Origin: Parafrankia elaeagni
GTDB taxonomy: Bacteria; Actinomycetota; Actinomycetes; Frankiales; Frankiaceae
Assembly: GCF_000374165.1 (NCBI RefSeq)
Contig: NZ_KB893772.1
Location: 140,445 to 204,444 of the forward strand
Direction of reading: 5' to 3'
Length of the DNA: 64,000 nucleotides
The number at the start of each line of letters is the position of its first letter. Within the stretch, counting starts at the first letter, position 1. The position numbers and the translations under genes are program-made. The notes beneath the pieces are model-generated. The model was not told where the DNA came from, ran no database searches, and saw only the letters and a list, made by a program, of their open reading frames with translations. Positions 33,694 to 55,497 of this stretch are shown here, one piece after another.

Positions 33694-34965
33694 ATGATGC
33701 CCCGTCGGCTGTTCACCTCCGAATCCGTCACCGAAGGCCACCCGGACAAGCTGGCCGACCAGATCAGCGACGCCCTCCTGGACGCCTACCTGAGCGCCGA
33801 CCCGACCTCCCGGGTCGCGGTCGAGACGCTGCTGACCACCGGCCACGTGCACGTCGCCGGCGAGGTCACCTCCGCGGCGCTCATCGACGTCACCGCGGTC
33901 GTGCGCCGCACGCTGACCGAGATCGGCTACAACGCGGCGACCGGCTTCGACGGGGCGACCGTCGGTGTCCTGGTGTCGATCGGCGCGCAGTCCCCCGACA
34001 TCGCCCAGGGTGTCGACCACGCCTACGAGGCACGGCGGTCCGCCGCCGGCGGGACGGCCGCCGGCGGGACGGCCGCCGACGACGCGCTCGGCCGGCAGGG
34101 CGCGGGCGACCAGGGGATCATGTTCGGCTACGCGACCGACGAGACCCCGGACCTGCTGCCACTGCCGATCACGCTGGCGCACCGGCTCGCCGAGCGGCTC
34201 GCCCGGGTCCGCCACGACGGGGTGCTGCCCTACCTGCGCCCGGACGGCAAGACCCAGGTCACCATCGAGTACGACGGCGACCGGCCGGCGCGGCTCGACA
34301 CCGTGGTCGTCTCCGCCCACCACGCCGCCGGAGTCGACCTCGAGAGCCAGCTGATCCCGGACATCCGCGCCCAGGTCGTCGAACCGGAGCTCAAGCGGCT
34401 CGCCGAGGAGAGCCTGGGCCTCGAGGTCGACGGCTACCGGCTGCTCGTGAACCCGACGGGCCGGTTCGAGATCGGCGGCCCGCAGGGTGACGCCGGCCTC
34501 ACCGGCCGTAAGATCATCATCGACACGTACGGCGGGTACGCCCGGCACGGCGGTGGTGCCTTCTCCGGCAAGGACCCGTCCAAGGTCGACCGCTCGGCGG
34601 CCTACGCGCTGCGCTGGGTGGCCAAGAACGTCGTCGCCGCGGGCCTGGCCCGCCGCGCCGAGCTGCAGGTCGCCTACGCGATCGGGAAGGCGGAGCCGGT
34701 CGGGTTGTTCGTGGAGACGTTCGGTACCGAGCAGGTACCGGTGGAGCGGATCGAGCGGGCCGTGGACGAGGTGTTCGACCTCCGCCCCGCCGCGATCATC
34801 CGGGACCTGGACCTGCTGCGCCCCGTCTACCGGCGGACGGCCGCCTACGGCCACTTCGGCCGTTCGCTGCCCGAGTTCACCTGGGAGCGCACGGACCGCG
34901 CCGACGCGCTGCGCGCCACCGCTTCCGCCGCCTCCTCCTCCGCCTCTGCCACCTCCTCCGCCTGA
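33694..34965 (+). CDS. metK: S-adenosylmethionine synthetase
   Basis: 423 residues from ATG 33694; ATG 33697 is next and possible. All MetK landmarks are present: [20 protein letters not shown] (ATP/Mg site), [55 protein letters not shown] and the C-terminal AYGHFGR. It makes SAM from methionine and ATP in the cytosol. A 15-base duplication gives a repeated Gly-Gly-Thr-Ala-Ala before GAGDQG, in a loop. It converges on metX with 19 bases between stops, so the methionine and SAM genes are grouped. Confidence 0.97.
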
Positions 34966-34984
34966 CCGTCCCGGGCTGGCCGCT

Positions 34985-38181
<3,197 letters not shown>

Positions 38182-38185
<4 letters not shown>

Positions 38186-39675
38186 GCGAGCAGACCGATG
38201 CCGCGACCACGCCCACCCGGCCGCCCGGCGCGAACCCGTCGGCGCACCGGGCCTCGCACCCGACCGACCGGGCCGCGTATCCGCCCGGCCGGGCCGCCGA
38301 ACCGCCCCCCGTGCCACCCGCCGGGCAGCCCGCCGGGCAGCCCGCCGCGCTCCCGGGTACCGCGGGTGTCACGCCCGCGCAGCGCGGGCCCGCGGTCTCG
38401 ACATGGTCGTTCGAAACCCGCCAGATCCACGCCGGCACGCAGCCCGATCCGACGACCGGGGCGCGCGCCGTCCCGATCTACCAGAGCGCCTCGTTCGTCT
38501 TCGCCGACGCCGAGCAGGCCGCCGGCCTGTTCGCCCTGACCGAGACCGGCTTCACCTACACCCGGGTCGTGAACCCGACCCAGGACGCACTCGAACAGCG
38601 CATCGCCGACCTGGAAGGCGGCGTCGCCGCGCTCGCGACCGCCAGCGGGCAGGCCGCGCAGACCCTGGCCCTGCTCAACATCGCCTCGGCCGGCGACCAC
38701 CTCGTCTCGTCCGCCTCGCTGTACGGCGGCACCTACGCCCTGTTCCGCCACACCTTCGCCGACCTCGGCATCGAGACGACGTTCGTCGACGACCCCGACG
38801 ACCTGGACGCCTGGCGGGCGGCGGTGCGCCCGAACACCGCCGCGTTCTACGGGGAGACGATCGGCAACCCGCGCGGCAACGTCCTGGACATCGCCGGGAT
38901 CGCCGCGGTCGGCCACGACGCCGGCATCCCGCTCGTCGTCGACAACACGCTCCCCTCGCCCTACCTCACCCGCCCGCTGGAGCACGGGGCCGACATCGTC
39001 GTGCACTCGGCCACGAAGTTCATCGGCGGGCACGGGACGTCCATCGGCGGTGTGATCGTCGACGGCGGCCGGTTCGACTGGGGCAACGGCCGCTACCCCC
39101 GCTTCACCCAGCCCGACCCGTCCTACGACGGCCTGGTGTTCCTCGACGTGTTCCCGGAGACCGCGTACATCCTGCGCGCCCGCGCGCGGCTGCTGCGTGA
39201 CCTGGGCCCGGCGCTGTCGCCGATGAACGCGTTCCTGCTGCTGCAAGGCCTGGAGACACTGTCGCTACGGATGGAGCGGCACTGCGCCAATGCGCTGCGC
39301 GTCGCGACCTGGCTGCGGGGCCACGAGGAGGTCACCCGCGTCGCCTACCCCGGCCTGCCCGACAGCCCCTGGCGGGACGCCGCGGCACGGTACCTGCCAC
39401 GGGGGGCGGGCGCGGTGGTCGCCTTCGGGCTGCGCGACGGCGAGCGCCGCGGCCCGGCCTTCATCGAGGCGCTGCGCCTGCACAGCCACCTGGCGAACAT
39501 CGGGGACGTCCGCTCGCTCGCGATCCACCCCGCGTCGACGACCCACGCCCAGCTCACCGAGGCCGAACGGGCCGCCAGCGGCGTCCCCGCCGACCTGATC
39601 CGGCTCTCCGTGGGCCTCGAGGGCGTCGAGGACATCCTCACCGACCTCGACACCGCGTTCCGCGCGACCCACTGA
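38182..39675 (+). CDS. second O-acetylhomoserine sulfhydrylase-like PLP enzyme (metY paralogue)
   Basis: 497 residues from GTG 38182, overlapping the oxygenase remnant stop. The first 72 residues are a Pro/Ala-rich extension; the true start could be later. The core repeats the metY pattern: [60 protein letters not shown], and [16 protein letters not shown] with the PLP lysine. It is divergent from metY and clearly a duplicate or related copy. It may use a different sulfur donor or act on another O-acyl substrate; this is unknown. Confidence 0.9.
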
Positions 39676-40099
39676 CCCCGCCTGACGGGCCTCACCCTGC
39701 AGACTTCCTCGGCCGGACCACCACCTGAACGCAGGATGCACCGCGCGAGATCGCTGCCCCGGTATGCGGGGACAGCTCGCGCTGTGGCCACGGCCGGGCG
39801 GAACAGTGGTCCGGGTTCGTCGACGCCGGTTTCGCATTTCGCAGGACCGCGATGGATACCATCCCGCTCGGCGAGACGGCGGCCAAGGCAGATGGTGGCA
39901 GATCGCACTACGGCTGGATCACGAGGGCAGTTCCGTTCTCAGTGCTGCCCTTTAGGGCCGTACAACAACGGTCCGAGCGTGACCATAACCCGTGAGGCAT
40001 GCTGTCGACACTGCTACAGTGCGGAACGGGTGTCCGGGAGAAACGGGCGTCATCTCAGTATGCTCTGGTGGTCGGTTTCCATGTGGGAGGCGGCGGCGG
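39676..40099. other. upstream region of the helicase-PLD gene
   Basis: 424 bases in which the GC content falls and the sequence style changes. A short hairpin GCCCT-TT-AGGGC lies at 39947-39958. No supported gene: the open frames lack motifs and good starts. GGGAGG (40085-40090) is the ribosome-binding site for GTG 40100. This may mark the left edge of an acquired segment. Confidence 0.4.
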
Positions 40100-43000
40100 G
40101 TGGGGTGGCGTGAAGAGATCGTCGCAGCCCTCGGCGAATGGATTACGGCCGAGGGAGGCGCGGGAAAGCCCGCGCGCTGGCGCCGCCTTGGCAGGGCGGC
40201 CCGCACCGGCGGGCCCGGTACCTACGCGCTGGACCTACGCGGCTCCGATATCGGACCCGACCAGCTCGACGCGCTGAAGCTCGCCGGCCCTGAACCTGAC
40301 TCCCTACGAACGACCGGGTTCGCCGTTTCCGAGGTCACGCAGAACGGCTCGCTGCTCACGCTGAAGGTCGCCGAGTTCGCCGACATCAGCGACCCGTACC
40401 TCTGGATGTTGAAGCAACCGCCGACGTTCCTTGTCGAGGCTCTGCGCGACGGGCTTCAGGGGCTGGGCGAGGCGGCTCTGGCGTCCGCGCTGGCCGCCGG
40501 ATCGATCGGTGGCGAGGCTTCACCGGTGTCTGCTCCGGCGGGTTTCCACCCGGCGCAGGGGGACGCCTACCGAGCATGTCTCGGCACGGGTGTGCGGCTG
40601 GTGTGGGGACCGCCGGGCACCGGCAAGACGACCGTCCTCAGCCGTGCCATCTGTGATCTCATCAGCAGGGGTGACCGGGTGCTGCTGGTCTCCGCCACCA
40701 ACATCGCCGTGGACAACGCCTTGCTGGGCGTGGTCAGGCAGAACCGGCACGCTTCCGGCGACATCGTTCGGGTCGGACCACCGCAGCTGAAGGAGATCGC
40801 CGACGACCCCACGGTTTCTCTCCCGCTCATCGTGCGGGAACGCCTCACCGAGACCACCGGGCGCAGCAACAGAATCGAACGTGAACTGGTGGCGATACGC
40901 GACCGTGCCGTGGAACTCGCCGCGCTGGGTGCAAGGGCTGTCGGCTTCGACCCCCCGGCCTACTTCGCGGCGCTGAAGCTGCTGCGCACCCCCGGGTTCG
41001 ACGTCGCCTCCGCCAACACCCGGTCGGATGACGCGGGTTCCCTGCTGGTCGCCGCGATACAGACGCTGGTGCGGGCTGAAGAAGTTCTGGTCAAGGCTCG
41101 TCGGGGCGTCACGGCCGTGGAATCCTCGCGCCGGCAGTGGGACGAGGTCGACGAACTGCGCTTGGAGCAGTCCCAATTGCTGGACGCGGCCGGCAGGAGA
41201 GACGCCGCGGTGCTACTGAGCACCGACCGCTGTCATCGACTCCGAACCGCACTGGAGGAACTCGAGAACCAGCGCGGCATCGCCCGATGGCGCGCGAAGG
41301 ATCGCAGGGAACAACTCGTGCAGGACCTGCGTGAGGCCGAAGAGCAGGCCAGCCGAGACAAAGATGATGCCGCAAGCGCTCGCGTCACCGCGCAAACCCG
41401 CCACAGCGCTCTCGAGCAACAGGTACGCGGTCTCATCGCTCGCATCCCACAAACCCGCGAACAGATCGGCACACGCCACGCGGAACTCCGCGCGGCGCAG
41501 GCGGCCCACCAGAGCGCCGAGCACCAGGTCCGTCGCCTGCGGCGTGAGGCAGACGAACGCGAACAGGAGGCGCGGCGAGCCCGGGATGCGCACGCCCTGA
41601 CCACACATGCCGAGCGGCGGGGCTGGCCGAGCTGCCACGCCGAGATCGAACGCCTGCAGCCACAAGCTGCCACGGACGCCCGACGGCGGCCCGAACTCGA
41701 GAAGCAGTTCGAACAGGTTCAGGAGGAGCACGAGCGACTTGTCCGCAACGCCCAGAAAGAGATCATCGGCTCCGCCAGACTCGTCGCGACCACTCTCGCC
41801 AGGTTCCGGACCAACAAGGCTGTCTTCGAGGGCCCCTACGATGTCGTGCTCGTCGACGAAGCAGGAGCGGCGACACTGCCCGAGGTTCTGCTCGCCACCG
41901 CGAAGGCTGGCCGCGCCGCAGTGCTACTCGGCGACTTCATGCAGCTCGGGCCGGTCATCCCGCCTGCGCTCAAGGATCTCAAGAGGCCAGACGTCGAACG
42001 GTGGCTGCTGCCAGACATCTTCCAGCACTGCGCGATCCGTGACCCGGAGGATGCGAGACGGCATCCGGGCTGCGTGTCTTTGGTCGAACAGCATCGGTTC
42101 GGCCCGACGGTCATGCGGCTCGCCAACGAACTGGCCTACGGCGGATCGCTCCAGCACGGACGTCGGGCTCCGGCGCCACGACCGGCCGATGACCCGGAGA
42201 TCGTCCTCATCGACACCGACGGCCTGCACGAACTTGCACACGTCCACCTCACAGGCCGCAGAAAGGGATGGTGGGCAGCGGGCTCGCTGATCTCCCGCGC
42301 GCTGGTCGAGCTGCACCACGAGGGAGGTGAGGAGACAGGTGTCGTCACTCCATACGGTGTGCAGGCCGAAGCCACCCTCGAGGCCCTCCGAGATGTCGAG
42401 GTGACCGGCCGCCCGCTGGCCGAGGTCGGTACGACTCACCGCTTCCAGGGGCGGGAGTTCCCCATCGTCATCTTCGACACGGTGGAGGGCGCGGGCAGCC
42501 GCGAGCTGTGGATGGCCCGAGCTCGAATGGGAACGGACGAATGGGAACGTGAGGGCGCCCGGCTCTTCAACGTCGCAGTCACCCGAGTCCAGACTCGTCT
42601 CTACATCATCGGCAGTGAGGAACGTATTACCGAGGCGAAGCGCGGGACAGCCTTCGCGTACCTGGCCGCGATGATCGGCACGGCTGGCGTACGGCGCCTC
42701 CAGGCGAAGCAGCTGATCACCCCGCCGAGCGGAGTCCCCGCTGCCCTCGGTCAGTTCGGTTCCACCCTTGCCGACGTGCTCAGCCGGCATGTGGAGGTCA
42801 CGGACGTCGACGACGAGCATGCCTTCTTCACCACCTTCGAGGACCAGATCCGCGGCGCCCGCGCCTCGTTGTGGCTGTGGGCACCGTGGGTCGCGAAACG
42901 TATCCGCGGCATCCTTCCCCTCCTGGAGGACGCCGCACGGCGTGGAGTCCGGGTTACGGTCTTCATCCGTGACAACTCCGACCAGGTGCAGCGCACCGAA

Positions 43001-43387
43001 GTGAGTCAGGATCTCATCGCGGATCTGCGAGCCGTGGTGCACACGGTTGTTCCGATCAACGTGATGCACCAGAAGGTCGTGGTGATCGACGAACGGACCG
43101 TGATGCTCGGCAGTCTCAACGCGCTCTCGCAGAGCTGGACTCGGGAAGTGATGCTGACGATGAGTGGCGCGCACTTCGCTCGCAAACTGCTGGCGCATCT
43201 GAACGCCGAGGATTTTGCGCGGCCACCCCCGTGTGGCAGGTGCGGCGGCACAAGTATAGAAGTCAGGCGCCGCAGCAACGGCATCTGGTTCTGGCGTTGC
43301 TACGACACCGTCTGTAAGACGGACCACAAAGGCAGAAGCAACGCCTGGAACCAGAACATTCGACTGGCCAGCGCCCGTTCGCAGTGA
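40100..43387 (+). CDS. Upf1-like SF1 helicase fused to phospholipase D nuclease; Mokosh type II (MkoC)-like defence protein
   Basis: 1095 residues from GTG 40100 (GGGAGG nine bases upstream). Helicase motifs run in order: Walker A WGPPGTGKTTV (near 170), VLVDEAGAATLPEVLL (near 583), LLGDFMQLGPV, VEQHRFGPTVMRLAN, VVTPYGVQAEA, VGTTHRFQGREFPIVIFDTV and FNVAVTRVQTRLYIIG. Between the first and second sits a coiled-coil insertion of about 220 residues. The C-terminal PLD part has one HKD motif, HQKVVVIDERTVMLGSLN (near 989), and a zinc ribbon (CGRCGG...CYDTVC) follows. COG1112 helicase plus PLD in one chain is the reported plan of Mokosh type II, an anti-phage system. Codon use is less GC-biased than in neighbours, suggesting transfer. 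Assignment is by architecture only. Confidence 0.82.
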   Translation: MGWREEIVAALGEWITAEGGAGKPARWRRLGRAARTGGPGTYALDLRGSDIGPDQLDALKLAGPEPDSLRTTGFAVSEVTQNGSLLTLKVAEFADISDPYLWMLKQPPTFLVEALRDGLQGLGEAALASALAAGSIGGEASPVSAPAGFHPAQGDAYRACLGTGVRLVWGPPGTGKTTVLSRAICDLISRGDRVLLVSATNIAVDNALLGVVRQNRHASGDIVRVGPPQLKEIADDPTVSLPLIVRERLTETTGRSNRIERELVAIRDRAVELAALGARAVGFDPPAYFAALKLLRTPGFDVASANTRSDDAGSLLVAAIQTLVRAEEVLVKARRGVTAVESSRRQWDEVDELRLEQSQLLDAAGRRDAAVLLSTDRCHRLRTALEELENQRGIARWRAKDRREQLVQDLREAEEQASRDKDDAASARVTAQTRHSALEQQVRGLIARIPQTREQIGTRHAELRAAQAAHQSAEHQVRRLRREADEREQEARRARDAHALTTHAERRGWPSCHAEIERLQPQAATDARRRPELEKQFEQVQEEHERLVRNAQKEIIGSARLVATTLARFRTNKAVFEGPYDVVLVDEAGAATLPEVLLATAKAGRAAVLLGDFMQLGPVIPPALKDLKRPDVERWLLPDIFQHCAIRDPEDARRHPGCVSLVEQHRFGPTVMRLANELAYGGSLQHGRRAPAPRPADDPEIVLIDTDGLHELAHVHLTGRRKGWWAAGSLISRALVELHHEGGEETGVVTPYGVQAEATLEALRDVEVTGRPLAEVGTTHRFQGREFPIVIFDTVEGAGSRELWMARARMGTDEWEREGARLFNVAVTRVQTRLYIIGSEERITEAKRGTAFAYLAAMIGTAGVRRLQAKQLITPPSGVPAALGQFGSTLADVLSRHVEVTDVDDEHAFFTTFEDQIRGARASLWLWAPWVAKRIRGILPLLEDAARRGVRVTVFIRDNSDQVQRTEVSQDLIADLRAVVHTVVPINVMHQKVVVIDERTVMLGSLNALSQSWTREVMLTMSGAHFARKLLAHLNAEDFARPPPCGRCGGTSIEVRRRSNGIWFWRCYDTVCKTDHKGRSNAWNQNIRLASARSQ

Positions 43388-43462
43388 GCGGCCGGTTTTC
43401 CCTCCGGGATACCAGCGCTGTCGGTGACGAGGAGGACGGAACAGGGGGCCGCAGAGGCGGAC

Positions 43463-44066
43463 TCAGGCCACTGCCTCCTCGCCGACCAGGGTGGTGCGGT
43501 GCATCAGGCGGTGGGACTCGGCCGTGTAGGGCTGGGCCCGGTGCAGGATGCCGGTGTTGTCCCAGATGACCAGGTCGCCGTGGTGCCAGTGGTGCCGCAG
43601 CGAGAAGCGGGGCTGGGTCGCCCAGACGAGCAGGCGGTCGAGCAGCTCTCGGCTCTCGGCCTCCGACAGGCCGACGACCCGTTCCGCGGTGGCACCGACC
43701 AGCAGCGACCTGCGGCCATTGCCGCGGGTCCACACCAGTGGATGCTCCCGGGACGGGACCTTGTCCCACGATGCCCGCATCCTCGGCGAGGCGTCGGGGT
43801 GCGCCAGTCGTTGCGTCGCGGCAAAGCTGTGCACCACACGAAGTTCGGCGTACCGCGCCTTCTCCTCGTCGGACAGCCCTTCGTAGGCCGCGTAGAGGTT
43901 GGCGAACTCGGTATCGCCGCCCTCGGTCGCGACCTCCAGCGCGGTCAGCAGGGTCGCCTTCTGCGGGACGAGGTCGTTGGCGCCGTCGATGTGCCAGAAG
44001 AACGTGCCCGACCGGTAGGCGGCCAGCGCGCTCTGCGCCGGATCGAGAGAGATCGAGGAGACCTCG
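43463..44066 (-). pseudogene. 5'-truncated TauD/TfdA-type 2-oxoglutarate dioxygenase
   Basis: The frame is open and TauD-like from about 44066 down to 43463: SISLDPAQSALAAY, the iron motif FFWHIDGAND, PQKATLLTALEVATEGGDTE, then the distal iron His in NTGILHRAQPY and the Arg in HRLMHRTTLVG. About 95 N-terminal residues are missing; the first in-frame start (GTG 43837) would even remove H-x-D. Upstream the DNA passes directly into the truncated aldo/keto reductase on the other strand. Known family members oxidise sulfonates, phenoxyacetates and similar small acids. Confidence 0.8.
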
Positions 44067-44075
44067 ATCGCGCTG

Positions 44076-44954
44076 GTGCACCGTTATCTCGACGCGGGCG
44101 GTAACTTCCTCGACACTGCGGATGCCTACGGCAGCTCCGAGGACATCATCGGCCGAGCCCTGAAGGGGCGCCGCCACCGCGTGGTCGTCGCGACCAAGGC
44201 CGGCCTTCCCGTCGGCCGCGGGCCGCACGACAAGGGCACCGGCCGCCTTCACCTTCGCAGGACCTGCGAGAACAGCCTGCGCCGGCTGCAGACCGACTAC
44301 CTCGATCTCTACCAGATCCACTTCGACGACCCGACCACCCCGATCACCGAAACCCTCGACACCCTCGACGATCTGGTTCGCGAGGGCAAGGTCCGCTACA
44401 TCGGCGCGTCCAACTTCCAGGCCTACCGGCTCATGAAGGCACTCGCCACCAGTGACGCCCGCGGCGAGGAACGTTTCGTATCGCTGCAGGGCCAGTACAA
44501 CCTGATCGTGCGCACCCTGGAGCGTGAGCACCTGGCCCTCCTCGAGGAGGAGGGCCTGGGTCTCATCGCGTGGAGTCCGCTCGCGGCCGGCATGCTCACG
44601 GGCAAGATCTCGGCCGGAGCAAAACCGGAAGGCACCCGGCTCGGCCAGCGTGAGGTCGAACTCGACGCGCTGGTCAGGAACGACCGCGGCTTCGCCATCG
44701 CCGCCGCCGTGGTGAAAGCCGCCGCCGAACTCGGCTGCACCCCGGCGCAGCTCTCCCTCGCCTGGCAGCGCACCCGCCCGGTCACCGCCACCATCATCGG
44801 GGCCCGCACCATGGCCCAGCTCGAGGACAATCTCGCCGCCCTGACCATCGCGGTTCCCGAGGAGATCCTGGCCGAGCTGGACCGCCTCACCGGTCTCCCC
44901 GACGAGTACCCCGGCGCCTTTCTCCGGACCATGCACAGCTGGCTCCGCCGCTGA
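44076..44954 (+). CDS. aldo/keto reductase lacking its N-terminus
   Basis: Homology starts abruptly near 44058 (EETSIALVHRYLDAGGNF); GTG 44076 is the first in-frame start. The catalytic tetrad is there: Asp and Tyr in LDTADAYG, Lys in VVVATKAGLP, His in DLYQIHFDD. The C-terminal cofactor part (TATIIGARTMAQLEDNL) is intact too. About 40 N-terminal residues with the first barrel strand (usually holding a GLG motif) are absent and no ribosome-binding site precedes the GTG, so it is probably non-functional. It abuts the truncated TauD gene head to head. Confidence 0.78.
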   Translation: MHRYLDAGGNFLDTADAYGSSEDIIGRALKGRRHRVVVATKAGLPVGRGPHDKGTGRLHLRRTCENSLRRLQTDYLDLYQIHFDDPTTPITETLDTLDDLVREGKVRYIGASNFQAYRLMKALATSDARGEERFVSLQGQYNLIVRTLEREHLALLEEEGLGLIAWSPLAAGMLTGKISAGAKPEGTRLGQREVELDALVRNDRGFAIAAAVVKAAAELGCTPAQLSLAWQRTRPVTATIIGARTMAQLEDNLAALTIAVPEEILAELDRLTGLPDEYPGAFLRTMHSWLRR

Positions 44955-45001
44955 CCGGCCCTGCCGCTGACGAACTCCGCCGACGAAGCCTTCCTCGGCG
45001 G

Positions 45002-45916
45002 TCAGTCGGAGGCCGCGTCCTCAGGGGCGACGAACGGGTAGATCGCGGTGAAGTCGGCTCCCGGCCGCTGGTCGGCGAACCTCCGCCACAGGGCCGCCAC
45101 GGGGCGTCCGACCTCGTCGGGTCCGCCCGCGGCGGCGACCTCGTCGAGATAGAGCCCGACGTCCTTGGCCATCAGGCTGTTGGCGAAGCCTGCGGCGTAG
45201 CGGCCGGTCAGAACGTGGTTGGGGAACTTGTCGCTGGTCGCGGAGTTCTGCCCACTGGAGGTGTTCAGCACGTCGAGCATCGTTGTCATCGACAGACCCG
45301 CCGCCGTTCCGAAGGCGATCGCCTCGCTCGTCGCGGCGAGCGCGGTGGCGGAGAGGTAGTTGTTCGCGAGCTTCATCGCCTGGGCCAGGCCGGGCCGGTC
45401 ACCGACCTGGATACGGCGGTCGGAAAGGCCCGCCAGCACCGGCACGGCCCGGGCGCAGCTGGCCTCGTCGCCTGAGTACATCACCGTGAGAGTCCTGGCC
45501 CGGGCGCCTGCGACCCCGCCGGAGACCGGTGCGTCGACGAGGCTCATGCCGGCGGTCTCGAGGAGTGCCGCGTTGTTTCGCGCGTGGACGACGCCGATCG
45601 TCGAGGTCTCCACGACCGTCAGGGCCGTCCGCGCGACGGTGCCGACGATCTCGCCGACCACCTGTGCTGACGCGAGGCCGTCCGGAAGGCTCAGGACGAC
45701 CGTGGCACTCGCGGCGGCGACAGCGCCCACCGAGGCCGCGAAGCTGGCACCGGCCGGTGCGCGGTCAGCTCCGGCGAGGTCGTGGCAGACGACCACGTGA
45801 CCGGCCTCGACCAGGTTGCGGGCGAGGACACTGCCCATGCTGCCGAGACCGATGAAGCCGACCGCGCTGGTCACCGCCGGGTCAGCCGCTCGTGGCGGGC
45901 GCTGCTCAGACATCAC
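45002..45916 (-). CDS. NAD(P)-dependent beta-hydroxyacid dehydrogenase (HIBADH family)
   Basis: 304 residues from GTG 45916 or ATG 45913. Motifs: VGFIGLGSMGSVLARNL (cofactor), VDAPVSGGVAGARA (substrate), QAMKLANNYLSATAL with the catalytic Lys. It lies 63 bases after an SDR gene on the same strand, so the two dehydrogenases probably form an operon acting on neighbouring steps of one pathway, repressed by the TetR gene opposite. It is only distantly similar to the family member at 26769-27662. Confidence 0.9.
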   Translation of the reverse strand: MMSEQRPPRAADPAVTSAVGFIGLGSMGSVLARNLVEAGHVVVCHDLAGADRAPAGASFAASVGAVAAASATVVLSLPDGLASAQVVGEIVGTVARTALTVVETSTIGVVHARNNAALLETAGMSLVDAPVSGGVAGARARTLTVMYSGDEASCARAVPVLAGLSDRRIQVGDRPGLAQAMKLANNYLSATALAATSEAIAFGTAAGLSMTTMLDVLNTSSGQNSATSDKFPNHVLTGRYAAGFANSLMAKDVGLYLDEVAAAGGPDEVGRPVAALWRRFADQRPGADFTAIYPFVAPEDAASD

Positions 45917-45979
45917 CGTGACTCCATTCGTGCGCTGGTCGGGATGCCACGCCGGGTGCCGCCTGCGCGGCCGGGCCGG

Positions 45980-46744
45980 TCAGGTGTTGCGGCCGCCGTT
46001 CACGCCGATGATCTGGCCCGTCACGTAGCCGGCCTCGTCGGAGACGAGGAACGAGCAGGCGGCGGCGATGTCCTCCGGCCGGCCCGCGCGCCCGACCGGG
46101 GTCCGGGAGATCGCCTCGTCGATGCCGCCGGGGCCGAACCGCCCCTTGCCCTCGTTGCGACGGGTCATCGGGGTGTCGATGAAGCCCGGCGGAATGGTGT
46201 TGACGGTGATCCCGGCGGGGCCGAACTCGAGTGCCAGCGACTTGGTCAGGCCGACCATACCGGACTTGGAGGAGACGTAGTGCGCCATGTACGGCTGCCC
46301 GCTGTGCGTGCTGGACGACGAGATGTTCACGATCCGCCCCCAGCCCGCCTCGATCATGTCGGGAAGCACGAGCTGACAGCAGTGGAACGTACCGGTGAGG
46401 TTGATGGCGAGCAGCTCGTTCCACGACTCGGGCGAGATGTCGAGGAACCGGCGGAAGCCCTCCTTCCCGGCGTTGTTGACCAGAACCGTGATCGGGCCGA
46501 AGGTCTCGCGCACCCGCCGAAGGCCCGTGTCGATCTGGTCACGGGAGGCCACATCGACACCGACCGCGATCGCCGCACCGCCATCGCCGCGGATCTTCGC
46601 GGCGGCCGACTCGGCCGCGGCCGCATCGAGATCGAAAAGACCGACCGCGATGCCGTCGAGAGCGAGGCGCTGCGCGATTCCCAGCCCGATACCGGATGCC
46701 GAGCCGGTGACCACGGCCACTTTCTCCTCAGGGCTCTCGGCCAT
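45980..46744 (-). CDS. short-chain dehydrogenase/reductase
   Basis: 254 residues from ATG 46744, preceded by GAAGGG; an ATG 12 codons upstream is less well placed. The classical SDR motifs are present: VVTGSASGIGLGIAQ, LVNNAGKEG, the catalytic Ser in VNISSSSTHSG, Tyr and Lys in YVSSKSGMVGLTK, and GITVNTIPPGFIDTPM. It probably oxidises or reduces a hydroxyacyl or alcohol substrate with NAD(P). It is the first gene of an operon with the HIBADH-like gene, and has a near-consensus promoter overlapped by a dyad. Confidence 0.93.
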   Translation of the reverse strand: MAESPEEKVAVVTGSASGIGLGIAQRLALDGIAVGLFDLDAAAAESAAAKIRGDGGAAIAVGVDVASRDQIDTGLRRVRETFGPITVLVNNAGKEGFRRFLDISPESWNELLAINLTGTFHCCQLVLPDMIEAGWGRIVNISSSSTHSGQPYMAHYVSSKSGMVGLTKSLALEFGPAGITVNTIPPGFIDTPMTRRNEGKGRFGPGGIDEAISRTPVGRAGRPEDIAAACSFLVSDEAGYVTGQIIGVNGGRNT

Positions 46745-46814
46745 GGCAATCCCTTCGGGGACGGTCAACGTGATGTGCACTGCATACCGATGCGACAGTC
46801 GCGCGGAACGCCGG

Positions 46815-46844
46815 AAGTATACTGCGATGTTTACTTTTGGTCAA
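46815..46844 (-). promoter_or_regulatory. near-consensus promoter of the SDR operon with overlapping dyad
   Basis: On the minus strand TTGACC (46844-46839), 17-base spacer, TATACT (46821-46816) is close to the sigma-70/HrdB consensus. AAGTA (46815-46819) and TACTT (46832-46836) form a dyad over the -10 box and spacer, a fitting site for the divergent TetR protein. Confidence 0.65.
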
Positions 46845-46929
46845 TGCTTAGAAGAGGATTCAGGCTGCCCGCGCGCCGGTGTGCGGGCTCCGGCACGGGC
46901 GGATTCAGCCGGTGCGAGAATCGAGGACC

Positions 46930-47583
46930 ATGACGCAACCCGCGCGGGCCGGCCGACCGACCCGGACCGGGTCGGCCGAACTCGAACAACGGCTGCGCCG
47001 GGCCGCCTTCGAGGTCTTCTGCGACCGCGGCTTCGAAGCCGCCTCCATGGAGGAGATCGCCCGCGCCGCGAACATCACCAAGCGCACTCTCTACGCGAAG
47101 TATCCAGACAAGCGCGCACTGTTCACGAAGATTCTTCCCTGGGCGATGTCGTCGCTGCAATGGGATCCGCCACTCGTGGCGGCGCCCGAGGGCGACCTCC
47201 GTGGCGAGCTCATGATGATCGCCCAGGCGGCGGTCGCCCGGGCCGTGGATCCCGCGATCGCGCAGCTGATCCGGATGGCCATGAGCGAGGCGCGCCGCTT
47301 CCCCGAGTTCGCGCGGGCGGCTCACTCGATGGCCTGGTCGCCGCGGCTGCGTTCGGTCGTCGAACTCCTCGATCGGCACGCGCGGGCCGGCACCATCGTC
47401 GTGGATGACCCAGAGCTCGCCGCCGAGCAGTTCCTCGCGATGGTCGCGGGTTTTCCGTCCATCCTCGCCGTGTTCGACCTGCGGCGCGGCACCGATGTCG
47501 AGCAGCGTCACATCGAGCACGCGGTCGAGCTGTTCCTCTCCGGCGTCGAGCCGCGGCCTGAGCGGGCGCCAGGCAGGGACTGA
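46930..47583 (+). CDS. TetR-family transcriptional regulator
   Basis: 217 residues from ATG 46930 (GAGGA just upstream). The TetR HTH is clear: RLRRAAFEVFCDRGFEAASM, then EEIARAANITKRTLYAKYPD and KRALF (about residues 17-62). The C-terminal ligand domain looks like the AefR-type group (MSEARRFPEFARA). It is divergent from the SDR operon and probably represses it, releasing on a pathway compound. Confidence 0.92.
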   Translation: MTQPARAGRPTRTGSAELEQRLRRAAFEVFCDRGFEAASMEEIARAANITKRTLYAKYPDKRALFTKILPWAMSSLQWDPPLVAAPEGDLRGELMMIAQAAVARAVDPAIAQLIRMAMSEARRFPEFARAAHSMAWSPRLRSVVELLDRHARAGTIVVDDPELAAEQFLAMVAGFPSILAVFDLRRGTDVEQRHIEHAVELFLSGVEPRPERAPGRD

Positions 47584-47651
47584 CGGACTGGAGAACGCTG
47601 ACAGGCTGGAGAACCTGGTTCTCTCCGGGGCGACCACTGGTCAGGCCCGGC

Positions 47652-48317
47652 CTATCGGGTCGATGGGGCAGCACCCGGCCGGCAGGCCAGCAGCTGTGCC
47701 TGCCGACCTCGCTCCTCGCCCGTCGGTGCCCGCACCAGCTGTGCGACCTCGACCAGCCCTGCCTGCCTCGCCAGCCGGGCGAGGTCGTCAGGCGGCCAGC
47801 GGTAGGCGGGCGCCACCCGATGGTCGTAGGCCTGCACCCCGGCCGCGGATTCGTCGGCGGCCGGGAAGCCGAGCAGCAGATGGCCGCCTGGTGCGAGGAC
47901 CCGGTGGATCTCGGCGAGGACGGCGAGGATGTCGGCGGGCGGGGTATGGATGAGCGAGTACCGGCAGAGGACGCCGCCGAGCGTCTGGTCCGGCAGGTCC
48001 AGCGCGGTCATCGAGCCCACCTCGAACCGCAGCTCCGGGTGGGAGCGTCGCGCCAGGGAGACCATCTCGGCCGACAGGTCGAGACCGAACACCTCCAGCC
48101 CCGACCTGTGCAGACAGGCCGCGGCGTAGCCCGGCCCGCAGCCGAGGTCCGCCACCGGGCCGCCGCGTTCGCGCACGATGTCCGCGAACGCGACCAGCAA
48201 CGCGCGCTCCAGCGGCTGGCGATCGAGAACGTCGGCGAAAAGCTCGGTGTAGAGCCCGGCCACGCCGTCGTAGGCCGCCGCGACGCCGGCCAGATAACTC
48301 GGGAAAGGCTCAGCCAT
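47652..48317 (-). CDS. class I SAM-dependent methyltransferase
   Basis: 221 residues from ATG 48317. The SAM motif is VADLGCGPGYAAACL (about residues 54-68), with the acidic residue in FGLDLSAEMV, then LGGVLCRYSLIHTPP and VLAPGGHLLLGFPA. The N-terminal AYDGVAGLYTELFAD is typical of small-molecule methyltransferases of the UbiE/Methyltransf_11 group. The substrate is unknown. It converges on the TetR gene; a small hairpin GAGAAC/GTTCTC lies between (47609-47623). Confidence 0.9.
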   Translation of the reverse strand: MAEPFPSYLAGVAAAYDGVAGLYTELFADVLDRQPLERALLVAFADIVRERGGPVADLGCGPGYAAACLHRSGLEVFGLDLSAEMVSLARRSHPELRFEVGSMTALDLPDQTLGGVLCRYSLIHTPPADILAVLAEIHRVLAPGGHLLLGFPAADESAAGVQAYDHRVAPAYRWPPDDLARLARQAGLVEVAQLVRAPTGEERGRQAQLLACRPGAAPSTR

Positions 48318-48514
48318 GGCCGATCACCCTATTATCCAGCCAGGCGCACGCCGATCGAGGGCTGGCTGACCGCGCGAAGACGCATCCGGGAAGACCGCAC
48401 CGACCACCTCGTCCAGTTCGCCGAGGCCAGCCGCGCCTGACAGCCGAGCAGTCACCAGCCACCAGCCACGGCCGCGGGAGCCACCGTTGCCGGTCACGCC
48501 GAGGCCGGTTGTCG

Positions 48515-48943
48515 TCAGAAGACCGGGTTGGTCTCCGCGTACAGCAGGCAGCTGTTGCCGAAGGTCTTTGTCCAGTGGACGGCCTTCTTCCCCCAGCGGC
48601 CGTCGGCCGTCGCCGTCACCGGGTCATAGATGAACGGACAGAGCACGGCGGGATCTATCGGGAGTCTGTCGAAGTCGCCGCCCGCCTTCGCGATGGCCGC
48701 GCAGGCCTGAACCGGGTTCGGATGGCTCGTCGCGGCGTTCGGCGGGCAGATCAGAACAACCGGCTTGCCCTGGTAGGGCTTTTCTCCCGCCGAGACGGTG
48801 AGAATGAACGCGCCACGTACGGGGCCGGGCCCCGCGTACGCGGACGCGGACGCGGGTGCAACGGCGACGACGGCGATCGCGGCCGCGAACGCGAAGGCCG
48901 CCCACCTGGCCGCAAATCGGGCCGTAAATTTTGACACAGACAA
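48515..48943 (-). CDS. secreted subtilisin inhibitor-like (SSI) protease inhibitor
   Basis: 142 residues from TTG 48943, with GGAGG six bases upstream. A signal peptide ends near ASASA. The mature part follows the SSI plan: FILTVSAG, VLICPP, HPNPVQACAAI, GDFDRLP, LCPFIYDPVTATADGRWG and a final NSCLLYAETNPVF. Four cysteines fit the two SSI disulfides. By alignment with SSI (reactive site Met-Val in CPM-VYDPV), the P1 residue here is Phe (CPF-IYDPV), pointing to chymotrypsin- or subtilisin-like targets. In Streptomyces such proteins block extracellular proteases. Confidence 0.92.
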   Translation of the reverse strand: MSVSKFTARFAARWAAFAFAAAIAVVAVAPASASAYAGPGPVRGAFILTVSAGEKPYQGKPVVLICPPNAATSHPNPVQACAAIAKAGGDFDRLPIDPAVLCPFIYDPVTATADGRWGKKAVHWTKTFGNSCLLYAETNPVF

Positions 48944-49356
48944 CAGAAACCTCCGAAATCGGAATTTTTTTCTCCCCGAAGGGGGAACTTCTCACCACGC
49001 CGGATGTCTGGAAAGTGACGATGGGTTGAACAGAGAAAGGACTGGAACCGCGCGGGGCGACCAAACACCGACGTCAATCGCCGGGATATCGCCACACAAG
49101 CTAGAGCAGCGCTCGACGAGCGTCAAGGGTCGTATACGTTCAGTCAACACCGCGGTCGACGAGCACCATTACGCTGGAACGCCTACGCCGCGCAGGGAAG
49201 GCGCCAGACACGAATCCGACCATCGGTTCCGCGGCCGCGGGCCTCGGTTCCGAGTACCGCGCGCTGGCGTGGGCGCGTGACCACCCGCGGTGGTTGGATC
49301 GGTTGCATGATCCGCGCGGTGCTGCCCGCCCGGCGCGCGCCCGCGCCGCCTGGGTA
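48944..49356. other. AT-richer leader of the inhibitor gene and intergenic gap
   Basis: 413 bases. Close to the inhibitor start lie a T7 run (48965-48971) and a hairpin TCCCC/GGGGA (48973-48977, 48982-48986); on the minus strand the hairpin comes before an A run, so it is a leader element rather than a terminator. No gene was supported in the rest. Confidence 0.4.
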
Positions 49357-51132
49357 CTAACGCCCGCGCCGCCGGGACAGGTCGGGCAGCGTCACGGGCA
49401 GCGGCATGGTCGGCGCCTCGACGACGGCCGCCGTCGCCGCCGTGCAGCCGGCGGCGCGCGAGGAGCGGCCGGCGGACGGAGCCTGCCCGGCAGGGGCGGC
49501 ATGAGCGGCGACGGCCCGCAGCGCGGTGCGGTCAAGCGGGCAGGTCTGCTCCCCCGCACCGGACGCCCCCCACCCACCGGCTCCGCCGAGGACGGCCAGG
49601 TCGTCCAGCCCGACCTGTACGTCAGGCAGCGCCGGGCGCCACCCGGCGAGGATCTCGCCGATCTCGACCCGGGGCAGATCCACGTCCAGGACTGGGCCTG
49701 GGCCGGTGCCGTTGCGGGCGAGGCGCACGGGGCGGTGCCGGGGTGCGGGAGCGGCGGGAACCGTGGCGGTGACCGGCTGCTCCGCCAGGGCCGTCAGCTG
49801 CTCGGGGGTCGGGGGGAGCTGCGGGGGGATCTCCACGCCGTTGCGCCCACGGTCGCCGCGGTCGGCGGGCGGCGTCATGGCGGCGGCGGCCCCGTCAGCG
49901 ACGTCCTGCCACAGGTCGTTCGGGCCCGCGGCGGGACCGGAACGTGCCATTCCGAGGGCGTCGCCGAGGACGTCGCCCGGGCCGCCGACACCCATTCCGG
50001 CCGCGGCGGCGACGATCGCGACGACTCCGGCGGCCGGGACCAGCCGGCGCCCCACCACCGCGGAGCGGCGCCGCCGGGAGGACAGCGGCGGGGCGGGGAC
50101 ATCCGTTTCGCCCGGGATGGCCGTGGCGCCCGTGGCGCCCGTGGCCCTGCGGGTGGCGGCGACGTCCAGGAACTCCAGGGCGGGCTCGCGGTGGCGGGCG
50201 CTGCCCGACCGCATCCGGCCGGTGCCCGTGCCGGCCGGCGCACGCACGCTGCCCGCCGGGTCGGCGTCCGGTTCGGCGTCCACATCCAGGCCGGGGTCGG
50301 GGTCGGCCGCCAGGTCAAGACCGTCGGGAGCGGTACCGGAGGCCAGCCAGCGCAGGAGGGCCGCCGCGTCGGGCCGGCGCTCCGGGCTCGTCCGCAGCGC
50401 CGTGGTGACCGCGGGGCGCAGGTCGGGCGGGACTCCGTCGATGTCCGCGTCGCCGCGGACCGTGCGCAGGACGAGGGCCTGCAGCGGCCCGTCGCCGAAC
50501 GGGGCGCGGCCGGAGGCCGCGTACGCGACCGTCAGCGCCCAGCAGTAGACGTCCGCCGCGGGGCCCGGGCGGACGTCGCCCGAGATCAGTTCCGGGGCCA
50601 TGTAGCCGACACTGCCCAGCACCACGCCGGACGCCGTCATCGTCCCGGGCAGGCCGGCGGCGATACCGAAGTCGATGACCTTCGGGCCGTCGCCGGCGAG
50701 GATGACGTTGCTGGGCTTGAGGTCGCGGTGCACGACGTCGGCGTCGTGGATCGCACGCAGCGCCTCGGCGAGACCGGTCGCCAGCGTGCGCAGGGCGTCC
50801 GGCGACGTCGGCCCGTCGTCGGCGACGGCGCGCAGCAGGGTCGGTCCGTGCACGTACTCGGTGGCGATCCACGGCGGGTCGCCGTCGGGCTCGGCGGCGA
50901 GCAGGCGGGCGACCCGCGGGCTGTCGATCGCCGCGATCGCGGCGGCCTCGCGGGTGAACCGGCGGCGGAACCCCTCGTCGTCCAGGAACTCGTCCCGCAG
51001 CACCTTGACGGCGCCCTGCCGGCCACCGGAGTCGACCCCCAGGTAGACGACGCCCATCCCGCCGCTGCCGAGACGGGCCGCCAGCCGGTACGGGCCGACG
51101 ACGAGCGGGTCACCGGCCCGCAGTGGCTTCAC
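49357..51132 (-). CDS. PknB-like Ser/Thr protein kinase, membrane-anchored
   Basis: 591 residues from GTG 51132. Kinase domain about 12-265: glycine loop LGSGGMGVVYLG, Lys in AVKVLRDEFL, catalytic HRDLKPSNVIL, DFGIAAG, and APELISGD. A Pro/Asp-rich linker and one membrane segment (AAGVVAIVAAAAGMGVG, near 375) lead to an extracytoplasmic part of about 200 residues with two cysteines and no PASTA repeats. It phosphorylates Ser/Thr of unknown partners. It is near, but not in one operon with, the kinase/phosphatase group at 51734-56082. Confidence 0.93.
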   Translation of the reverse strand: MKPLRAGDPLVVGPYRLAARLGSGGMGVVYLGVDSGGRQGAVKVLRDEFLDDEGFRRRFTREAAAIAAIDSPRVARLLAAEPDGDPPWIATEYVHGPTLLRAVADDGPTSPDALRTLATGLAEALRAIHDADVVHRDLKPSNVILAGDGPKVIDFGIAAGLPGTMTASGVVLGSVGYMAPELISGDVRPGPAADVYCWALTVAYAASGRAPFGDGPLQALVLRTVRGDADIDGVPPDLRPAVTTALRTSPERRPDAAALLRWLASGTAPDGLDLAADPDPGLDVDAEPDADPAGSVRAPAGTGTGRMRSGSARHREPALEFLDVAATRRATGATGATAIPGETDVPAPPLSSRRRRSAVVGRRLVPAAGVVAIVAAAAGMGVGGPGDVLGDALGMARSGPAAGPNDLWQDVADGAAAAMTPPADRGDRGRNGVEIPPQLPPTPEQLTALAEQPVTATVPAAPAPRHRPVRLARNGTGPGPVLDVDLPRVEIGEILAGWRPALPDVQVGLDDLAVLGGAGGWGASGAGEQTCPLDRTALRAVAAHAAPAGQAPSAGRSSRAAGCTAATAAVVEAPTMPLPVTLPDLSRRRGR

Positions 51133-51392
51133 CGGCACCAGCTCCGCCGACGGCCAGCATCCTGCGCCTGTGTGTCGGACGGGTACACGGTCACCACCGG
51201 ATCGTCGTGAGTCGGACAGGTCGCTCGACGGACCCGCCCGCCGCGGGATGACCGCGGGGGCCGGCGCCTCCACAGCTAGATACGCGGTGACCGGCCGGCT
51301 ACCCGCGTACCACCTCGGATCACTTCCGGGCCGGCTCCGGATCACCTCCGGATCGCCTCGGGTGCAGCCGTTCGCGGGCTCGTACTTCCCTC

Positions 51393-51833
51393 ATGGGACA
51401 GGTCCATGAGTGCATCGACGGCCGGCTCCGGGCGTTCGTCGAGGCGCAGAAGATGTTCTTCGTCGCGTCCGCGCCACTGGCGGGAGACGCCCGGATCAAC
51501 GTCTCGCCGAAGGGCCGGGACGGTTCGCTCACCGTGCTCGACGAGCGGACGGTGGCCTACCTGGACTTCGGGGGCAGCCACGCGGAGACCATCGCGCACC
51601 TGCGTGAGAACGGGCGGATCACGCTCATGTGGTGCGCCTTCGACGGGCCACCGAAGATCGATCGACGGGCTGCCCGCGCTCCCCCTCCCCCTGCCGCCCC
51701 GGCCCCACCCGGCGCGCTGACCGCCACGACGCGTCAGCTCCACCCGGGCCAGCGCCCGGGCTTCGGCCCGGCCGGGCCCGGAACGGGCGGCGGCAGCCGG
51801 CGGCGAGGCGGCAGCACCGGGCCCGAGCCGTAG
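51393..51833 (+). pseudogene. 3'-truncated pyridoxamine 5'-phosphate oxidase-like protein
   Basis: The first 90 residues match the PNPOx-like flavin-binding family: MFFVASAPLAGDARINVSPK, VAYLDFGGSHAETIAHLREN, then ITLMWCAFDGPPKI. Homology stops dead at about 51660. What follows is Pro/Ala-rich and runs into the 3' end of the convergent kinase-OB gene; other frames do not restore the family pattern. The second half of the barrel is lost, so activity is unlikely. Confidence 0.75.
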
Positions 51834-53707
51834 GCCGCCCGGGTCGCGGGGGCCGCGGGCACCGATCCGGGACGGTTCAGCAGGCTCTCGGCCTCCCGCT
51901 CGGTCAACACCCGCAGGAGGCTGCCGCGGCGCAGCTCGATGCGCGGTGAGCGCGGCGCCCGGGCGGTCCGGGTCAGATCAGCGCTCGACGCGGCGCGGCT
52001 CCCAGCCTGCGCACGGCTCCCGCCCTCGGCGCCGCTGCCACCCTCGGCGCCGCTGCCAGCCGGGCCGCTGCTGCCAGCCGGAGCGCGGCTGCCGGCGGAA
52101 CCCATGCCCATGCCCATGCCGGGCGGGATCCAGCCTCCGTACTCGTCCGCCAGGTCACCCCGGTCGTCGACCACGATCTGGCCCACCATCCGGACCCAGA
52201 CGCCCGCGAGAGCGGCAAGGTCGCCGTGGCTGGCGGTGAGTTCTCGACTGACCCGGTCCCAGGCGATGACCTTGAGGCTGCCACCGCGCGGATTGCCGAA
52301 GTCGAGGATGGTCACCGTCCCCGTCCGGCGGACCTGGCGCACGCCCTGGATCCTCCCGACGACCATCACCTCCTCCGCGCGGCGGGCGAGCAGCCCCGCG
52401 CGGTCCCGCGCGGACAGCACCGTCGGCGCGGGGACGACCACCGGTGCCGGACGCAGCGGCCGGGTGCGCAGATACCGCGCCGCGGACACGGTGCTGACGA
52501 CCCCCACCGCACCCGCGGCCGGCCCGGCGGCAGCGGGTACCGCCGGCATGGCCGGTGCTGCCGGCATGGCCGGTGCTGCCGGTGCGGCCGGTGCTGCCGG
52601 TGGGCCGGGGACGCCACGCGGACGCGGCACAGCATGCGGACGCGCCACGCCAGGCGGCCGCGGGGCAGCAGGCGCGCGCGGGAGGCCGTGCGGGAGGCCG
52701 TGCGGCCCGAGTACCGGAGGCGGGGCGGGTGGGCCCTGCCAGGCGGGCGGGACACCCGGCGCCCGGCCAGGACTGCCGTGCCAGCCACCGGCCCGGCCAC
52801 CAGCACCAGCACCAGCACCTTCGTAGTGGACGTGGGCCTCGGCGTCGAGGATCGCGGCGGCGTCGGCGTAGTCGACCAGGCAGGCGTCCCGGAGCCGGCG
52901 GGCGGCGGCGGCGACGCCGGGCATCTGTTCGAGCCGGGCGAACAGTGCGGAGGCGGACGGGTCGGCGAAGTCGGCGGCGGAGAGGAGGAGGTTCTCGCCG
53001 GTGTTGAACTCGCGCCACAGGTACGGGTCGCGGGCGAGCGCGGCGAGCGACACCGCGATCACCTCCTGGGCGAAGCGGTCGAGCGTGACGTCGTACTGGT
53101 TCGAGCGGTCCGGATGCTGGTAGTTGCGATGGCCGCGTTCGGAGGCGCCGAGGGAGCCCAGCGCGGGCAGGTACATCCCGTCGTAGTCGACGAGCCGGAT
53201 GGACGCGTCCGGCAGGACGAGGATGTTGCCGTGCTGCAGGTCGCCGTGGGCGGCCCCGCGGCGGCGCAGTTCCGCCACGGCGGTGTTCAGGCTGAGCCGG
53301 GCGCGGTCGAGCCGGGACGGGCGGTCCAGGTTCTCCTGCACCCAGTCGTCGAGGCGGGCGCCGTCGATCCACTCCATCCGCACGATGGGCCAGGCCCGGT
53401 CGCGGACCCGGATGCCGGCGGGCAGGTAGTCGACGCCGACGAGGAAGTCGAGGGAGGCGGAGCGGACGAAGTCGGCGATGCAGGCGTAGCGCAGCTCGAG
53501 GTTGTCGCTGTGCCGGTGGAAGCACCGCACCGCGTACCGCCGGCCGGCCCGGCTGACGTCGAAGGTCAGCGCGAAGCCGCCGGTGGCGACCGCGGGCATG
53601 CCGAGCGGGGTGAGTCTCGGCACGCTCTCACGCAGCCGCTCGTCGAGGAACGCCAGCCGCGGGATCTGGACGGCCTGCTGGTAGTCGAGAAGGGTGGGCA
53701 GCTTCAT
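51734..53707 (-). CDS. atypical protein kinase with C-terminal OB-fold (TerY-P triad kinase-like)
   Basis: 657 residues from ATG 53707. Residues about 30-290 form a kinase-like fold with RMEWIDGARLDDWVQ (hinge), HGDLQHGNILV (catalytic loop, near 145) and RLVDYDGMYLPAL in place of DFG. Residues 310-430 are a Pro/Ala-rich linker. Near 446-515 lies an OB-fold-like part, VMVVGRIQGVRQVRRTGTVT, then LKVIAWDRVS and VWVRMVGQIVV. A kinase of this type with an OB-fold beside a PP2C and a vWA protein is the TerY-P triad described in Ter-linked stress systems (family knowledge). It is the last gene of the operon, 67 bases after the phosphatase. Confidence 0.85.
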   Translation of the reverse strand: MKLPTLLDYQQAVQIPRLAFLDERLRESVPRLTPLGMPAVATGGFALTFDVSRAGRRYAVRCFHRHSDNLELRYACIADFVRSASLDFLVGVDYLPAGIRVRDRAWPIVRMEWIDGARLDDWVQENLDRPSRLDRARLSLNTAVAELRRRGAAHGDLQHGNILVLPDASIRLVDYDGMYLPALGSLGASERGHRNYQHPDRSNQYDVTLDRFAQEVIAVSLAALARDPYLWREFNTGENLLLSAADFADPSASALFARLEQMPGVAAAARRLRDACLVDYADAAAILDAEAHVHYEGAGAGAGGRAGGWHGSPGRAPGVPPAWQGPPAPPPVLGPHGLPHGLPRAPAAPRPPGVARPHAVPRPRGVPGPPAAPAAPAAPAMPAAPAMPAVPAAAGPAAGAVGVVSTVSAARYLRTRPLRPAPVVVPAPTVLSARDRAGLLARRAEEVMVVGRIQGVRQVRRTGTVTILDFGNPRGGSLKVIAWDRVSRELTASHGDLAALAGVWVRMVGQIVVDDRGDLADEYGGWIPPGMGMGMGSAGSRAPAGSSGPAGSGAEGGSGAEGGSRAQAGSRAASSADLTRTARAPRSPRIELRRGSLLRVLTEREAESLLNRPGSVPAAPATRAAYGSGPVLPPRRRLPPPVPGPAGPKPGRWPGWS

Positions 53708-53774
53708 GCACGTCCCTCGCGCCGTTGCGGGGAGCCGGCAGGGGCCGGGGAAACCACGTGGTGCGGACGGGGGC

Positions 53775-55369: not shown

Positions 55370-55497
55370 ACCCTTATCGTTCCATATCGCGCGGGCATTC
55401 CGACGTTCCGGCCACAGCAGACCGCGCTGTCGGGGTGACCAGACAACACCTTTTGATGAATCCACCTCGTTATGCGGATCCGGACTGCCCGGACGTA

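Follow-up and report, generated by a model that had tools for sequence, protein, structure and literature searches.

What is a single gene that joins a UPF1-class helicase to a phospholipase D (PLD) nuclease doing in Parafrankia elaeagni, and does it belong to the Mokosh type II defence system, which it was first taken to resemble? The gene lies on contig NZ_KB893772.1 of assembly GCF_000374165.1, in the 64,000-nucleotide stretch analysed here (positions 140,445 to 204,444 of the forward strand; the window). Judged from its sequence, the protein has the layout of Mokosh type II without being an MkoC by descent: the architecture is the same, the assembly separate. Horizontal acquisition of the gene is well supported, and we take it to be, probably, a self-contained anti-phage (or anti-mobile-element) helicase-nuclease, that is, a candidate defence gene. 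Coordinates are collected in Table 1; L and G numbers denote loci (or their proteins) and genomes used for comparison.

The reading frame stays open from 39992 to 43387, and the GTG at 40100 yields the N-terminus VGWREE; several relatives begin alike (VGWREE or VGWQEE). The preliminary description had reported superfamily 1 (SF1) UPF1-type motifs and a complete HKD motif on a single chain, and both were confirmed: Pfam AAA_11 (residues 153-620, 110.8 bits), AAA_12 (residues 658-840, 61.0 bits) and PLDc_2 all matched above cut-off, and the helicase motif QGRE is present besides those in Table 1. Given these matches and 12 other long open relatives, the architecture is not due to chance. Of 14 aligned proteins, 13 retain the Walker A consensus and HxK; L071 deviates in both. 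NCBIfam PLuB_AAA matched the query at 53 bits, and a Pfam scan of the protein gave no kinase or NERD match. In profile searches against PDB, the PLD domain matched Zucchini/MitoPLD (4ggj, E 3.7e-4), Nuc (1byr, E 0.0026) and NucT (6ehi, E 0.038), which are single-HKD nucleases active as dimers, and the closest solved structures to the helicase part were SMUBP-2, UPF1, Dna2 and SEN1. The latter result, together with a match to TIGR00376, the IGHMBP2-family model, would suit a housekeeping RNA- or DNA-repair helicase of the IGHMBP2/UPF1 class with an added nuclease; however, TIGR00376 is matched at 97.4 bits against a cut-off of 348.9, and the gene is missing from its congeners, patchy, inserted and often broken, as detailed below, and we regard such a role as very unlikely.

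Between Walker A and DExx lie 413 residues, compared to 401-430 in three MkoC and 258 in one MkoA; a long insertion is thus not unique to the window protein. The insertion is rich in R, A, E, Q and L and contains two 50-residue stretches without P or G. Its length agrees with the long coiled-coil insertion described earlier, whose coiled-coil character is read from composition and weak SMC/JetC matches, not from structure. The terminal zinc ribbon of that description is likewise present as a four-cysteine pattern, and since no Pfam zinc family reached its cut-off in the 10 C-termini scanned (the nearest, recombinase zinc ribbon on L092, scored 20.8 against a cut-off of 25.3 bits), the label rests on the cysteine pattern. 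Rather than a lineage-specific extra, as had been supposed, the ribbon is a mark of the family: C-x2-C plus two more cysteines occurs in 10 of the 14 aligned proteins, with a histidine replacing one cysteine in L068 and L071, three cysteines in L067 and no such pattern in L007.

Mokosh type II (MkoC) has been described as a COG1112 helicase fused to PLD (PMC11672841, PMC10013915; these and all papers below are cited from excerpts). The window gene shares with it the single-gene layout, an N-terminal SF1 UPF1-class helicase, a C-terminal single-HKD PLD and the long gap after Walker A. The supposed resemblance therefore stood as regards a helicase followed by PLD on one chain and matches to the PADLOC Mokosh models (MkoA 160, MkoC 122 and MkoB 36 bits), but not as regards strict membership, the MkoC match being only partial and the MkoA score higher. 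The best MkoC stretch pairs residues 659-1016 with positions 771-1111 of the 1136-position profile, roughly its last third, whereas the genuine MkoC plasmid proteins L097 (Agrobacterium) and L098 (Vibrio) score 1,235 and 1,414 bits along almost its full length. The query is 20% identical to L097 and 18% to L098, and both these aligned chains lack the cysteine ribbon. Moreover, 122 bits on the MkoC model is not specific, because other UPF1-like helicases reach up to 200 bits in an actinobacterial survey (21 of 246 genomes, the window's own included) and a Raoultella helicase, with no HKD by pattern search, reaches 238. The window's own genome has a second match to this model (C65:56751-57527; L065, L124; 95 bits, helicase part only), another UPF1-like helicase.

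A helicase tree of 19 rows placed the family with L118 and L099 (87/88) and after these with an MkoA. Forcing the family and three MkoC into one clade was rejected (log-likelihood difference 84.7; approximately unbiased test, p-AU 8e-47), as was a single clade of the tested helicase-PLD fusions (p-AU 1e-59); these p-values are indicative, because the tree contains long branches and its groups received their names only once a first tree had been inspected. L007 (the same protein as L118), L071, L087 and L089 were omitted beforehand, L113 and L121 were dropped for having no motif VI by the pattern used, and L100, L122 and L123 were removed as long branches before the constrained test; with them, the family also stands apart from MkoC. 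L118 (4648-7788, plus strand) is another Streptomyces helicase-PLD fusion; its C-terminal domain differs (DUF5710-like, by eye), and it may represent one more fusion lineage. The PLD part alone scored 40.2 bits on MkoB, 36.4 on MkoC and 34.8 on DrmC, and cannot be assigned to any of the three because the scores do not separate them; DrmC, whose PLD domain is related, is a separate gene in the multi-gene DISARM system. Among 296 genomes of the phylum, one contained MkoB itself. Full MkoC membership was thus excluded by score, by identity and by the helicase tree. That the gene nevertheless belongs to Mokosh type II proper, as an MkoC that has diverged within actinobacteria, would be in line with the same domain order, a profile match spanning the helicase-PLD junction and the long Walker A-to-DExx gap of both; set against the scores, the low identity, the rejected joint clade and the two aligned MkoC without ribbon, this seems to us quite unlikely.

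Other systems resemble the gene in part. Its helicase scores best on MkoA and its PLD part alone best on MkoB, as in Mokosh type I, in which, however, helicase and PLD are encoded by separate genes and an STK domain is present; NERD also occurs in type I (PMC10952713). No kinase or NERD was matched here by Pfam. CoCoNuT CnuH is an SF1 helicase, UPF1-like, in which Walker A is followed by a large insertion that is helical and in part coiled-coil, and CoCoNuTs have a fused Vsr in type III-B, a PLD effector in type III-C and an association with TerY-P (PMC11090510). The window protein is also UPF1-like, with a long charged and probably helical insertion after Walker A; unlike CoCoNuT, its PLD is directly fused, no winged helix-turn-helix (wHTH) was matched and no CnuB/CnuC GTPase (McrB/McrC-type) was found among the 10 window neighbours scanned by Pfam (34490-51345). 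In BREX-related type-2 fusions, which occur in a BREX-like setting, a helicase likewise shares its chain with an HKD nuclease, but the nuclease is N-terminal and the helicase of the Swi2/Snf2 class, and the excerpt of the source leaves Mokosh and UPF1 unmentioned (PMC12839542). The protein may work, as proposed, like Mokosh type II and the CoCoNuT helicase-effector pairs, while representing a fusion of its own, assembled independently on a helicase branch that is MkoA-like.

Several lines of evidence point to a foreign origin. GC content at third codon positions is 0.786 in the gene against 0.956, 0.884, 0.879 and 0.899 in four neighbours, in agreement with the lower codon GC noted at the outset. 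The gene was not found in six congeneric genomes, at either E 1e-30 or E 0.001. Its nearest relatives are three Streptomyces proteins (63-67% identity); members from the organism's own taxonomic family are 36-39% identical over the alignment. In a 12-row family tree omitting L007 and L071, the window protein clusters with two Streptomyces sequences (95/94), within a clade formed by six Streptomyces rows and itself, and forcing it to join its own taxonomic family costs 303 log-likelihood units and is rejected (p-AU 6e-6). With L007 and L071 included it still joins L031 and L032 (86/95), the deeper forks being unsettled.

The same neighbourhood exists in the close relative G002 (locus L111; main blocks at 93-97% identity) without a 3.78-kb segment in which the helicase-PLD gene is the sole gene called; there the flanks are joined, the counterparts of window positions 39678 and 43457 lying eight bases apart. 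G002 alone has both flanks together, the other five congeners keeping the side of the pyridoxal phosphate (PLP) enzymes, with the TauD side elsewhere or unmatched. Loss in G002, rather than gain in the window lineage, is possible; gain is favoured because the gene is absent from all six congeners and has its affinity with Streptomyces. No exact direct repeat of at least 8 nt was found within 60 bases either side of the insert junctions, the window contains no tRNA that we could find, and a scan for promoters and terminators found none of either (0 and 0).

The gene or a fragment of it was found in 11 of 121 Streptomyces genomes (E 1e-40); it also occurs in six of the 36 genomes of its order, its own included (G017 and G027 with fragments only), and in two of 396 sampled phylum genomes, again counting its own (E 1e-30). 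Twenty copies were compared, 19 from relatives and that of the window: 13 are intact (a count that includes L071, with degenerate motifs), six are broken (L033 by an in-frame stop, L069, L070, L094, L095 and L096) and one is split at contig ends (L090/L091). The ratio of nonsynonymous to synonymous substitution rates is 0.207, 0.160, 0.213 and 0.284 in four pairs, and the family is under purifying selection.

The gene moves between unrelated loci and is patchy. L086 and L087 have the gene in common but not the flanks, and L088 and L089 share 4.26 kb, comprising the gene and a small divergent antitoxin-/PIN toxin-like pair (by eye), and elsewhere only short repeats. In L089 the shared piece is bordered on one side by a tRNA-Arg(CCG) gene (7497-7569) and on the other by a repeat of that gene's 3' part (12599-12636), at which ARAGORN calls a second, odd 95-nt tRNA-Arg; no integrase-like open reading frame (ORF) was seen by eye from the tRNA to the gene. 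In L088 ARAGORN called no tRNA, and two repeats of the tRNA-Arg stretch flank the piece (5216-5266 and 12446-12491); L094 has the tRNA-Arg(CCG) gene and L095 one repeat of the tRNA-Arg stretch. These four Streptomyces copies are in a tRNA-Arg-associated cassette. All four have a small PIN-like ORF near tRNA-Arg or the repeat, with an antitoxin-like partner called in L088 and L089 (both ORFs named by eye), as might be expected if the gene protected a mobile element from competing plasmids or elements rather than the host from phages; but the copies in the window and in L086/L087 have no such pair, and we hold this to be highly improbable. Neutral in this respect is that no full-length copy appeared in the collections searched: the viral contigs gave no relative by the patterns used, the phage records two weak partial matches, and the plasmid records 539 matches, none covering 80% of the query.

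Defence genes adjoin some copies. PADLOC was applied to chosen neighbouring ORFs of L032, L033, L066, L068, L069, L088, L089, L092, L093, L094 and L095, and Pfam to three L031 neighbours, while L067, L070, L071, L086, L087, L090/L091 and L096 were judged by eye from ORF starts; the scans being selective, we claim no rate of defence neighbours. L032 (S. echinatus) has BrxC (1,327 bits), PglZ (843 bits) and BrxH (925 bits), divergent from the gene, and L033 has BrxC (1,280 bits) on one side and an HEC-07-like gene (59 bits) on the other. In L093, TerY (347 bits), a PP2C-like ORF (by eye) and STK_OB (227 bits) are co-oriented with the gene and followed by a type I-like methyltransferase. Weaker signs came from L094 (PDC-S27-like, 53 bits) and L095 (DNA methyltransferase, 111 bits).

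Such settings could mean that the gene serves a multi-gene system (BREX or a TerY-P/CoCoNuT-like module) as effector or accessory and is inactive unless those partners are present, all the more as a TerY-P triad lies 8 kb off in the window and CoCoNuT helicases co-occur with TerY-P (PMC11090510). Yet the neighbours vary by locus, L086 and L087 share the gene and no flanks, BrxC adjacency is rare (see below), the window insert is the gene alone, and the window triad is collinear (93.7%) in G002, which lacks the gene; we therefore consider dependence on such partners unlikely. BREX partnership as a rule was rejected, adjacency holding for one of 11 carriers and co-occurrence being near chance, as was the window TerY-P as a partner, which is collinear in G002 and outside the insert. 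That probable triad, at 51734-55627 on the minus strand, consists of TerY (54497-55627, 270 bits), a PP2C-like ORF (53775-54500, named by eye, 30% identical to its L093 counterpart) and STK_OB within 51734-54118 (276 bits). No BrxC or PglZ was found among the window proteins given to PADLOC.

If the gene does act in defence, its motor would load onto phage nucleic acid in single-stranded form, either RNA or ssDNA, and move along it at the expense of ATP. The protein may dimerise through the helical insertion, the PLD domain or both, and two single HKD motifs would then make up a shared active site, as they do in Nuc and Zucchini. The ribbon might, at a guess, grip or position the nucleic acid, and translocation could feed the strand to the nuclease, so that phage transcripts or replication intermediates would be cut. 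Sources on Mokosh itself disagree: it is said to degrade foreign viral transcripts (PMC11291487), and its mechanism is listed as unknown (PMC12926258).

A number of observations weigh against a defence role or against its proposed workings. Most copies have no identified defence neighbour, the scans having covered the neighbours of some copies only; PADLOC gave no match for the chosen neighbours of L066 (one ORF), L068 (two), L069 (one), L088 (three), L089 (one) and L092 (one). BrxC adjoins the gene in one of 11 Streptomyces carriers (gene or fragment), and that locus is L032's again, the G465 locus L072 being contained letter for letter in L032. Across the 121 Streptomyces genomes, 24 have BrxC, 11 the gene or a fragment and three both (G457, G465 and G535), with a chance figure of ~2.2. 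The structure model of the C-terminus, from a four-row alignment, is not confident (predicted local distance difference test, pLDDT, 44.5). Lastly, L071 (7299-10955, minus strand), from another actinobacterial family, deviates from the Walker A consensus as well as from HKD; its reading frame is nevertheless long and open, with a linker rich in proline and glycine.

The preliminary description had placed the gene beside deletion scars, as in a defence island. A scar is indeed there, but it lies in metabolic genes, and both immediate neighbours of the gene are metabolic. In this scar, at 43457-44066, 571 bp present in G002 have been deleted at a short repeat, which leaves TauD and an aldo/keto reductase truncated at their adjoining ends: TauD covers only positions 153-267 of its 267-position profile, and the reductase match starts at position 25. 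Of the 10 neighbours scanned by Pfam, nine are metabolic, regulatory, methyltransferase or kinase genes and one has no family. Two divergent Cys/Met-metabolism PLP enzymes (36190-37881, minus strand, and 38182-39675, plus strand; ~77% DNA likeness) form a large inverted repeat, and the pair is matched in all seven genomes of the genus. A Ser/Thr kinase (49357-51345, minus strand) scored 182 bits on the PD-T4-6 defence model and is possibly an ordinary actinobacterial kinase, and an ORF at the window edge (63304-63750, plus strand) has a P-loop-like stretch, NRGAGKSAIL.

Table 1. Features of the helicase-PLD locus, in window coordinates.
Feature	Position	Strand	Details	Basis
Helicase-PLD-cysteine ribbon gene	40100..43387	+	1,095 aa, GTG start	ORF list, Pfam, PADLOC, relatives
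Walker A / motif I	40607..40630	+	GPPGTGKT, residues 170-177	Alignment
Charged, probably helical (coiled-coil) insertion	41087..41764	+	Residues ~330-555, between Walker A and DExx	Composition, weak SMC/JetC matches, alignment
Walker B / motif II	41852..41866	+	VDEAG	Alignment
Helicase motif VI	42569..42586	+	NVAVTR	Alignment
PLD-like nuclease domain	42842..43201	+	Pfam PLDc_2, residues 915-1034, 44.2 bits, above cut-off	Pfam; profile vs PDB
Single complete HKD motif	43067..43090	+	HQKVVVID (H990, K992, D997), then GSLN	Alignment
Four-cysteine ribbon at C-terminus	43232..43315	+	C1045, C1048, C1067, C1072	Cysteine pattern; no Pfam model at cut-off
Segment missing at syntenic site of G002 (L111)	39679..43456	.	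Sole gene called inside is the helicase-PLD gene	Comparison of loci
TauD dioxygenase remnant (flank only)	43463..43837	-	N-terminal part missing; L111 ORF longer, 298 aa	Pfam
Junction of 571-bp deletion vs L111 (G002; flank)	44054..44066	.	At short repeat	Locus comparison

Going further than a candidate defence gene, we would tentatively propose, as a possible rather than a probable reading, that the family represents a third Mokosh-like lineage with an assembly of its own, in which an MkoA-type helicase joined to PLD and a cysteine ribbon acts as a lone actinobacterial defence system. It would spread in small cassettes that have no evident integrase and that lie, in four Streptomyces, close to tRNA-Arg(CCG) with a toxin-antitoxin-like pair. 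The excerpts seen of the open-licence literature contained no published Streptomyces helicase-PLD family with a cysteine ribbon, and the MkoC model matches the helicase-PLD-ribbon family in part only. Since the segment holds one gene and its site is empty in a close relative, the acquisition of a candidate defence gene can be tested directly. If the gene defends, the coupling of helicase and PLD was assembled at least twice, and selection would favour the pairing itself and not one MkoC lineage; if the third-lineage reading is true, that coupling would have evolved more than once for phage defence.

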